The notes under the pieces are model-generated. The model worked only from the letters and a program-made list of their open reading frames with translations. It did not search any database and had not been told where the DNA came from. A stretch of 64,000 nucleotides of DNA from an uncultured Bacteroidota bacterium (GTDB taxonomy: Bacteria; Bacteroidota; Bacteroidia; Flavobacteriales; Flavobacteriaceae), in assembly GCA_902536935.1 (NCBI GenBank), contig CACAZM010000003.1, forward strand, positions 1 through 64,000, given 5' to 3'. Positions 27,017 through 30,424 of the stretch are shown here, one piece after another. Every line of letters begins with the position of its first letter. Position 1 is the stretch's first letter. The position numbers and the translations under genes were made by a program.

Positions 27017-27227
27017 AGAACAAATTTTCAAGGGACTATCACGTCTTTTTATCGCAATCCTCTTTGCCTTTACTGGTCCGGTGATTTACACGTCAGCTGT
27101 TCGAAATGAACACCATCCTTTTTTTATTCCTGTTTTAGGCCTTGGATTGATTGCCTGTATCCTTGCCATTCTGTACGGATTTCGTGGGATAAAACTTCTA
27201 GTAAAGGGTTTCTTTAATGAAAACTAA
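27009..27227 (+). CDS. DUF6095 family small membrane protein
   Basis: This 72-residue protein has two hydrophobic helices (about residues 13-32 and 39-60) separated by a short polar loop. It matches DUF6095, a flavobacterial family found after murQ. The gene overlaps murQ by 8 nt, so the two are co-translated. Its function is unknown; an inner-membrane accessory role in amino-sugar recycling would be only a guess. Confidence 0.75.
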   Translation: MNKEQIFKGLSRLFIAILFAFTGPVIYTSAVRNEHHPFFIPVLGLGLIACILAILYGFRGIKLLVKGFFNEN

Positions 27228-27258
27228 GTTTACCCCTTGAAAGAGCCCCTAATCGTAT

Positions 27259-27285: not shown

Positions 27286-29232
27286 ATGATTCAAATTCGA
27301 CTTCCAGACGGAGCAATAAAAGAAGTGAGCAAAGGGACAACTCCCCTTGATATCGCAACTTCCATCAGCGAAGGGCTCGCACGAAATGTAATGTCAGCAA
27401 GCTACAACGGAGAAGTTGTTGAAGCGACTACACCACTTCAAGTAGACGGCAGTTTAATTCTATATACATGGAATGATCCTGAAGGGAAAAAGGCATTTTG
27501 GCATTCATCTGCTCATGTACTCGCACAGGTTCTTGAAGATCATTATCCTGGAATAAAGCTCACCATCGGACCTGCTATCGAGCAAGGGTTCTACTACGAT
27601 ATTGATCCAAGTAGTCATACAGTAACCGAAAAAGATTTTGATGTCATCGAAAAACGTATGATTGAGGTGTCACGTGAGCAATATGCGTTCTCGATACGTT
27701 CTGTTTCCAAAAAAGAAGCGTTGGCGTATTATCAAAACGAAAAAAATCCATACAAGACTGAGCTCATTGAAAACCTCAGTGATGGTGATATTACCTTCTG
27801 TGACCATGCAGACTTCACAGACCTTTGTCGAGGGGGGCATCTGCCCCACACTGGCTTTATTAAAGCTGTAAAGCTCACAAATATCGCTGGTGCATATTGG
27901 CGTGGGGACGAAACCAAACCACAACTCACACGAATTTATGGGATCTCATTTCCCAAAGAAAAGCTGCTTAAAGAACACCTTCAGCTCGTCGAAGAGGCTA
28001 AAAAAAGAGATCATAGAAAGCTTGGAAGTGAAATGGATCTTTTTACTTTTTCTAAAAGAGTCGGTCAAGGTCTTCCTCTGTGGCTGCCAAAAGGTGCTGC
28101 TCTTCGCGATAGACTTGAACGTTTCTTAAAAGAAGCTCAACGAAAAGCTGGATATGAACAGGTTGTCTCTCCGCATATCGGACATAAAGAGCTTTACATG
28201 ACTTCTGGTCATTACGAAAAATATGGTTCTGATAGTTTTCAGCCAATCAAAACCCCTTCGGAAGATGAAGAGTTTTTGCTAAAACCAATGAATTGCCCGC
28301 ATCATTGTGAAATTTTTAGTGCGCGTAGTTGGAGTTACCGCGATTTACCTAAACGCTATGCTGAGTTTGGAACGGTATATCGCTACGAGCAAAGCGGTGA
28401 ACTACATGGATTGACACGGGTTAGAGGATTCACACAAGATGATGCGCATATATTTTGTACTCCTGATCAACTGGACAGTGAGTTTAAAGCTGTCATTGAC
28501 TTGGTTTTATATGTATTTAGTTCTTTGGGGTTTGCAGATTTTACCGCACAAGTATCCGTTCGAGACCCTGAAAACTCAAATAAATACATTGGAAAAGTTG
28601 AAGATTGGGAAAAAGCAGAGCAAGCCATTATCAATGCAACACAAGAAAAAGGATTAAATTATGTCATCGAAACAGGTGAGGCCGCTTTTTATGGACCCAA
28701 GCTAGATTTTATGGTAAAAGATGCCTTGGGAAGAAGTTGGCAACTGGGAACAATTCAGGTGGATTACAGCTTACCTGAGCGATTTGATCTCACATACAAA
28801 GGTAGTGATAATGCCCTTCACAGACCTGTGATGATTCATCGTGCACCCTTTGGTAGTTTGGAGCGATTTGTAGCCATCCTCATCGAACATACAGCAGGGA
28901 ACTTCCCGCTTTGGCTCACACCAGATCAAGTTAATATATTGTGCGTGAGCGAGAAATACGAAAAATACGCGAAAAAAGTTTCTCAATTATTGGAAAATAA
29001 CGAAATTCGCACCCTCGTTGACAACAGAAATGAAACCATCGGTAAGAAAATTCGTGAGTCTGAGCTTCAAAAATATCCATACATGATTATTGTTGGAGAA
29101 AAAGAAGTTTCGGAATCTGTGGTTTCGGTTCGAGAGAACGGCGGGAAAGATCACGGAGCTATGTCTCTGGATAACTTCATTCGATTGGTAGAAATGACAA
29201 TACAGAACGAAGTTCTAGAATTTAAAACATAA
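27286..29232 (+). CDS. thrS: Threonine--tRNA ligase
   Basis: The 648-residue protein has the full bacterial ThrRS layout: TGS domain (residues 1-60), the editing domain with HSSAHVLAQ and [10 protein letters not shown], a class II core with [10 protein letters not shown] and [14 protein letters not shown], and a C-terminal anticodon-binding domain. It charges tRNA-Thr and edits mischarged serine. It leads the conserved operon with infC, rpmI and rplT; the leader is short. Confidence 0.97.
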
Positions 29233-29242
29233 ATCGCACGTT

Positions 29243-29794
29243 ATAGCCATACGAAGAAGAAGAGGCAGAGGTCCTCAACGAGTAATCAAAGAAGACCAAC
29301 ACAAGATTAATGACAAAATCTTGGCAGGTGAAGTTCGTCTTGTTGGCGAAAACATAGAAATGGGAATTTATCCTCTTGCAAAGGCGATGGGAATTGCTCG
29401 GGAACTCGAGCTGGATTTGGTAGAAATTTCACCAAATGCATCTCCCCCAGTTTGTAAGATCATTGATTACAAGAAATTTCTATACGAACAAAAAAAGCGT
29501 GAAAAAAGTTTAAAGGCCAAAGCAAGCAAAGTTGTGCTAAAAGAAATTCGTTTTGGGCCACAAACAGATGAGCACGATTATGCATTTAAGAAAAAACACG
29601 CTATTAAGTTTTTAGAAGAGGGAGCGAAACTAAAAGCATTTGTGTTTTTCAAAGGACGCTCTATTATTTTCAAGGAACAAGGACATATCTTGTTACTGCG
29701 ATTAGCTCAAGACCTTGAAGAATATGGAAAAGTTGAGCAGCTTCCAAAATTAGAAGGGAAAAGGATGATCATGTTGATGAACCCTAAAAAATAA
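29243..29794 (+). CDS. infC: Translation initiation factor IF-3, probable ATA start codon
   Basis: The 183-residue reading from ATA 29243 begins [11 protein letters not shown] and continues into the IF-3 N-domain (HKINDKI...EVRLVGEN) and C-domain ([14 protein letters not shown], then [17 protein letters not shown]). The first conventional start, TTG 29321, would delete the family's basic N-terminal tail and first strand. No ATG, GTG or TTG occurs in frame between the thrS stop and 29321. IF-3 genes commonly use rare AUU-type starts, which allows autoregulation because IF-3 rejects such codons. Confidence 0.9.
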
Positions 29795-29806: not shown

Positions 29807-30004
29807 ATGCCTAAGCAAAAAACAAAATCAAGTGCAAAAAAGCGTTTCAAGCTAACCGGAACTGGAAAAATTAAACGAAAGCACGCATTTAAAAATCACA
29901 TTTTGACAAAAAAATCAAAAAAGACAAAATTAAAATTAACGCATTCAACATTGGTGCACGATGCCGACGTTGACAATGTAAAACAACAACTTCGATTGAA
30001 GTAA
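29807..30004 (+). CDS. rpmI: 50S ribosomal protein L35
   Basis: The 65-residue basic protein has the L35 pattern ([31 protein letters not shown] region and the HILTKKS core). It lies 12 nt after infC and before rplT in the standard operon order. It is part of the large ribosomal subunit. Confidence 0.95.
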
Positions 30005-30079
30005 AAACTGGTGTATAACCCTTGGGCGGGTCATAAAGAGCAAAAACAATTTGCCACCTTCCTAAAAACAGAAAATAAA

Positions 30080-30424
30080 ATGCCGAGATCAGTAAATGCA
30101 GTAGCCTCTAGGGCCCGAAGAAAAAAGATGATGAAACACGCCAAAGGATATTTTGGGCGTCGTAAAAATGTATGGACAATTGCCAAAAATGCTGTTGAAA
30201 AAGCATGGGAATATGCATATAGAGATCGAAAAACCAAGAAAAGAAATTTTCGCTCATTGTGGATTGTTCGAATTAATGCCGCAGCCCGTTTACACGGTAT
30301 GTCTTATTCCCAATTTATGGGGAAAGTCAAGGCCAAAAACATTTTATTAAATCGAAAAGTTTTAGCCGACCTTGCAATGAACCATCCAGATGCTTTTAAA
30401 GCTGTGGTGGATAAAGTGAAGTAA
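30080..30424 (+). CDS. rplT: 50S ribosomal protein L20
   Basis: The 114-residue protein starts [19 protein letters not shown], the normal L20 N-terminus, so the ATG at 30080 is right and the open frame upstream (from 30011) is untranslated. L20 binds 23S rRNA early in 50S assembly and in several bacteria represses its own operon. The 75-nt gap from rpmI could hold such a site, but I cannot identify one. A weak hairpin terminator follows. Confidence 0.96.

Follow-up and report, generated by a model that had tools for sequence, protein, structure and literature searches.

An AUA start of infC without a Shine-Dalgarno sequence as a likely IF3 feedback device in Flavobacteriaceae

Introduction

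Where does translation of initiation factor IF3 begin in a flavobacterium whose infC frame offers no canonical codon at its 5′-end, and why would such a start be kept? The question is raised by a window (the whole stretch of 64 000 nucleotides analysed here, to which all coordinates refer) that belongs to a Flavobacteriaceae genome available as a 1.56 Mb draft of 44 contigs, 78% complete. A survey by Gvozdjak and Samanta reportedly includes infC in its set of genes that start at codons other than AUG, and a family-level count of infC starts may exist there. IF3 disfavours starts other than ATG, GTG and TTG, and infC is described as self-regulated on that basis, with ATT in Escherichia coli and ATC in Streptomyces (PMC5472188). 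In Staphylococcus aureus an AUA start of infC is reported from retapamulin profiling, and the authors call autoregulation likely (PMC13009471), whereas infC is stated to start with ATT in Listeria, where the codon is called experimentally confirmed (PMC13068326), and with AUU in Bacillus subtilis (PMC1805508). For Bacteroidota, no description of infC starts was found in the portion of the open-access literature returned by our search, and the word infC does not occur in the main text of either the Flavobacterium johnsoniae ribosome-profiling paper (PMC6847099) or the bS21 paper (PMC9976891).

Materials and methods

The survey comprised 201 infC loci of the phylum, for which the search yielded further matches beyond those fetched. 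Because L222 did not align, the survey set was reduced to 200 loci: 50 from the window's own family, 52 from other families of its order, 88 from the rest of the class and 10 from the rest of the phylum. Starts were placed by a rule, a near-cognate codon (ATG, GTG and TTG included) followed by an Ala codon, which succeeded in 143 of the 200 loci; a further 45 were placed by hand and 12 were left open, giving 188 placed loci. The rule-placed ATA of L200 is probably a copy downstream of a likelier ATC and was kept in the counts. A second set consisted of the best 80 named records of a longer scan and overlaps with the first. Shine-Dalgarno (SD) sequences were scored as matches to the complement of the anti-SD; a pattern search for the 16S tail in 40 genomes gave no hit. 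Matches to rpsU numbered 42, spread over 37 of 40 genomes, with loci available for 30.

Results

The infC frame opens with ATA 10 nt downstream of thrS

In the window, all on the forward strand, thrS (threonyl-tRNA synthetase, 27286–29232; TIGR00418, 715 bits) ends with TAA at 29230–29232 and is followed by a 10 nt spacer (29233–29242) that lacks an SD and ends in GTT, placing G at −3. ATA at 29243–29245 comes next, followed by GCC ATA CGA AGA, and infC read from it as Met (29243–29794) encodes an IF3 of 183 aa with a near full-length match to TIGR00168 (182.8 bits, residues 17–183) and the Pfam domains IF3_N, from residue 22, and IF3_C. No stop interrupts the frame between TAG at 29216–29218 and its end at 29792–29794. 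Thus, the first-pass annotation was right that the frame is open and family-like after ATA 29243, and that no in-frame ATG, GTG or TTG lies between the thrS stop and the TTG at 29321–29323. Its further statement that gene callers would cut 26 residues holds for a caller restricted to ATG, GTG and TTG, which would begin at this TTG (157 aa) and drop the N-terminal segment 29246–29320; that annotated records are truncated in this way is a probable consequence only. The operon continues with rpmI (bL35, 29807–30004; TIGR00001, 81.2 bits), and an ORF from ATG 30080 (30080–30424, inside the listed ORF 30011–30424) is, judged by its sequence, probably rplT (bL20). With this assignment, the window shows the order thrS-infC-rpmI-rplT expected for infC.

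A non-canonical codon is retained at the infC start

The first-pass annotation took ATA as the probable start and proposed comparing this codon in close relatives. Within the family, 50 loci from 32 genera carry ATA (47) or ATC (3, one of them placed by hand) at codon 1, and never ATG, GTG or TTG; in the 13 loci of the own genus, the window included, this codon is ATA in 12 and ATC in 1. The best 80 named records give ATA 79 times and ATC once, again with no canonical codon. In none of the 50 family loci does ATG, GTG or TTG separate the upstream stop from the IF3 core, and the same is true of 45 of the 52 loci representing other families of the order, 35 of 88 elsewhere in the class, 7 of 10 elsewhere in the phylum and 77 of the best 80 named records; the three other records, L058, L062 and L072, carry TTG or GTG before the core, yet not at codon 1. 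When each genus is counted once, ATA stands at codon 1 in 30 of 32, whereas codon 3, also ATA in the window (29249), is ATA in 18, ATT in 9, ATC in 2 and not Ile in 3. The Ile codons at the two positions differ (Fisher 0.004), as do those at codon 1 and inside infC (ATT 199, ATC 94, ATA 93; P = 2e-15), although genera share history and both values serve as a guide only. Codons 2–26 exhibit a pN/pS of 0.19, compared with 0.095 for the rest of infC (18 of the 19 relatives tried).

The retention of ATA or ATC at codon 1, the variability of codon 3, the coding character of codons 2–26 and the poor conservation of codon 27 (TTG 29321) together indicate that AUA 29243 is almost certainly the start of infC, as in the relatives. 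ATG stands at codon 1 in 0/50 family loci and in none of the best 80 named records, even though it is a single transition away from ATA, and on this comparative evidence a non-canonical codon is kept at the infC start by selection. ATA had been described as an unusual version of the E. coli device; judged by these alignments it is instead what the family normally uses, and infC of S. aureus had already been reported to start with AUA (PMC13009471). Over all 188 placed loci codon 1 is ATA in 107, ATC in 32, TTG in 18, ATG in 11, ATT in 10, CTG in 6 and GTG in 4. Canonical codons (TTG, ATG or GTG) are used by 32 of the 81 placed loci in the class beyond the own order, so that the device is dispensable there. 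Six loci from genomes of 0.3–0.6 Mb, probably insect endosymbionts (L217–L221, L201), show ATT-ATA or ATA in the infC start region, two of which (L220, L221) also have an in-frame ATG there, and two genomes of one family (G102, G152) lack an infC match.

Proposed feedback by IF3 and alternative readings of the start

We consider it likely that IF3 is initiated at AUA 29243 and that this codon, being disfavoured by IF3, subjects infC to feedback, here in a form that has no SD in its own family. Initiator fMet-tRNA at AUA would give Met-Ala-Ile-Arg-Arg, with Met probably removed before Ala. As IF3 disfavours initiation outside AUG, GUG and UUG, abundant IF3 would depress the translation of infC and scarce IF3 would raise it, which would keep IF3 in step with 30S subunits. 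The 30S subunit would probably be guided to the AUA by the A-rich stretch at about −14 to −11, by the lack of structure in the leader and by ribosomes coming from thrS, which ends 10 nt upstream. Expression from a non-AUG start is lowered in the absence of feedback as well. AUA could be the start and only set a fixed low dose of IF3, with no feedback or with coupling to thrS dominating. In favour of this reading, reporters in S. aureus with non-AUG starts of other genes are reported to reach ∼10% of the output of AUG when the medium is poor and up to 30% when it is rich (PMC13009471), an rsbW reporter of Listeria is reported to rank ATG > ATA > ATT (PMC13068326), and the proximity of the thrS stop is compatible with coupling. 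Against a fixed dose, IF3 discriminates against precisely this class of codon and infC of E. coli is a documented case of feedback (PMC5472188), and we regard a fixed dose as a rather unlikely account.

Placing the start elsewhere is far less probable than either of these readings. The TTG at 29321 is the first canonical codon in frame, and initiation there would leave the preceding segment untranslated; yet its homologue, codon 27, is ATG in 8 and TTG in 6 family loci (14/50 together), codons 2–26 are under purifying selection and the first five residues of IF3_N would be lost, making this start highly improbable. Another near-cognate start is equally hard to credit: ATA 29249 (codon 3) and ATT 29306 (codon 22) are both in-frame AUN codons, but 3 of 32 genera have TTA, TTT or AGA in place of the former, which elsewhere is a mixture of ATA, ATT and ATC, and the latter, although ATN in 50/50 family loci, is a non-AUN codon (GTN, ACN, TTA or CTC) in 21 of the 188 placed loci. 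TTG 29321 and ATT 29306, which the first-pass annotation had named as starts that would overturn its proposal, thus both fail on codon conservation among relatives. Least probable of all, and already refuted, is that an error in the draft assembly hides an ATG, given the codons of the 13 own-genus loci and the presence of ATA in isolate genomes such as that of Polaribacter sp. BM10 (NZ_CP019704.1, L080).

Leader of infC

Of the 13 own-genus loci (window included), 12 have a thrS-infC gap of 10 nt and one has a gap of 11 nt, and in 48 of the 50 family loci the thrS stop lies at most 40 nt upstream of the infC start. No notable structure was found in the leader (z −1.09), and a structured leader was rejected on this value. 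Also rejected were a known RNA element (a single match at 27204–27246 on the other strand, far below the family cut-off, E 0.28), a promoter signal (8 sites versus 9.1 in shuffles) and a terminator signal (2 sites versus 3.0). Directly before the AUA, a G-pyrimidine-C/T triplet is conserved between the window (29240–29242) and genera of the family. Pairing of positions −3 to −1 with the initiator tRNA loop would suit the own genus, with its GTT, but would not suit most other genera, which have GCC or GTC, and the idea was dropped.

Adenine occupies −13, −12 and −11 in 30 of 32 genera each and −14 in 27 of 32; the window departs from this with T at −13. Adenines at −3, −6, −12 and −13 are reported to favour initiation in F. 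johnsoniae (PMC9976891), and the A-rich stretch of the family's infC fits the determinants at −12 and −13. Position −3 of infC, by contrast, is G in 28 of 32 genera (with C at −1 in 26 of 32), whereas −3 of rpmI is A in 24 of the same 32. The conserved G runs counter to the lineage preference for A and weighs against the account preferred here.

Shine-Dalgarno sequences at infC, rpmI and rpsU

SD sequences are rarely used by the class Bacteroidia. Within the family, none of the 50 infC loci has an anti-SD match of at least 5 within −19 to −5, so that the properly spaced SD of the SD-dependent device, as in E. coli and S. aureus, is absent; rpmI of the family has a match of at least 6 in 3 of 50. 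The own genus keeps a strong SD at rpsU, as described for Flavobacteriales, with a match of at least 7 in 11 of the 11 loci read (L303 and ten others), and over all rpsU loci read 19 of 30 have a match of at least 6. Without an SD at infC, the flavobacterial ribosome must select the AUA in some other way.

Among the rule-placed infC loci from the class beyond the own order, 20 of 53 have a match of at least 6, where shuffles preserving base composition only expect 2.5, and rpmI has none in 47. These SDs occur at 20 of 32 non-canonical starts and at 0 of 21 starts with ATG, GTG or TTG; with hand-placed starts included, the figures are 27 of 49 and 1 of 32, the last being a hand-placed TTG (L266) that goes against the pattern. 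Matches of at least 6 precede non-AUG infC in L134, L141, L142, L144, L148, L149, L152–L154, L159 and others (Bacteroidia outside the own order), and further SD-bearing non-AUG loci are L225, L228, L229, L231, L245, L250, L252, L253 and L255. Other families of the own order do not differ significantly between infC (5 of 35, rule-placed) and rpmI (1 of 33; Fisher 0.20), and with hand-placed starts infC reaches 6 of 49, compared with 4 of 49 for a stretch within the gene. In the rest of the phylum, no SD was found at infC (0 of 6). The matches at infC are 6–9 bases long, and GGAGG is present within 25 bases before the placed start in 32 of 188 loci, ending 4–9 nt upstream of it.

A quick tree of 137 genera, from which an endosymbiont-like family (f16) was excluded, yields 8 supported independent pairs, of which 4–5 associate a non-canonical start with an SD and 0–1 point in the opposite direction. 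The sign test gives a median P of 0.125, which implies that the Fisher values overstate the link, and once kinship is allowed for the association in the class is weak and suggestive only.

Discussion

The infC of the window resembles that of E. coli in gene, in the order thrS-infC-rpmI-rplT, in an AUN start disfavoured by IF3 and in a short gap to thrS, which measures 3 nt in the E. coli record. It differs in that this record combines ATT with an upstream GGAGG, whereas the family uses AUA and no SD. The infC starts of Streptomyces (ATC), Listeria (ATT) and B. subtilis (AUU) described in the papers cited above are likewise non-canonical, but with other codons and in other phyla. S. aureus infC shares the AUA start, but there an extended SD is predicted to direct it (PMC13009471), an element lacking in the family's infC. 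The AUA device of infC is thus already known, and what our analysis would add is the family's form without an SD. Such a form shows that a non-AUG start can persist for long without an SD. Callers that accept only ATG, GTG and TTG would probably truncate IF3 at its N-terminus throughout a large bacterial family.

The link between a non-AUG start and an SD at infC of other Bacteroidia would offer a direct test of the role of the rarely used anti-SD. A broader and more tentative possibility, which we hold to be doubtful, is that infC of Bacteroidia is a two-input sensor hidden by annotation, in which the non-AUG start senses IF3, the SD senses 30S subunits with a free anti-SD, and the window's family has kept the codon arm only. 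SDs at infC are present in 14 of 33 families outside the window's order (rule-placed starts), and the class sequesters its anti-SD. McNutt et al. point out that SDs of ribosomal genes can go unnoticed when 5′-ends are wrong (PMC9976891), and the SD of infC may have been missed in the same manner. If the two-input proposal is true, screens based on annotated starts would search at the wrong position and overlook infC.

The SD-based autoregulation of bS21 (rpsU) in Flavobacteriales is comparable in that it, too, involves an initiation site atypical of the lineage at a gene of the translation machinery, and is said to need pairing below −13 kcal/mol; it differs in its AUG and extended SD (PMC9976891), as opposed to the AUA without an SD of the family's infC. 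One family of the survey (f15) presents the reverse of the window's genus, with GGAGG at infC in all four loci (L169, L171, L172, L203) and no match longer than 4 bases at the one rpsU locus read from it (L288).
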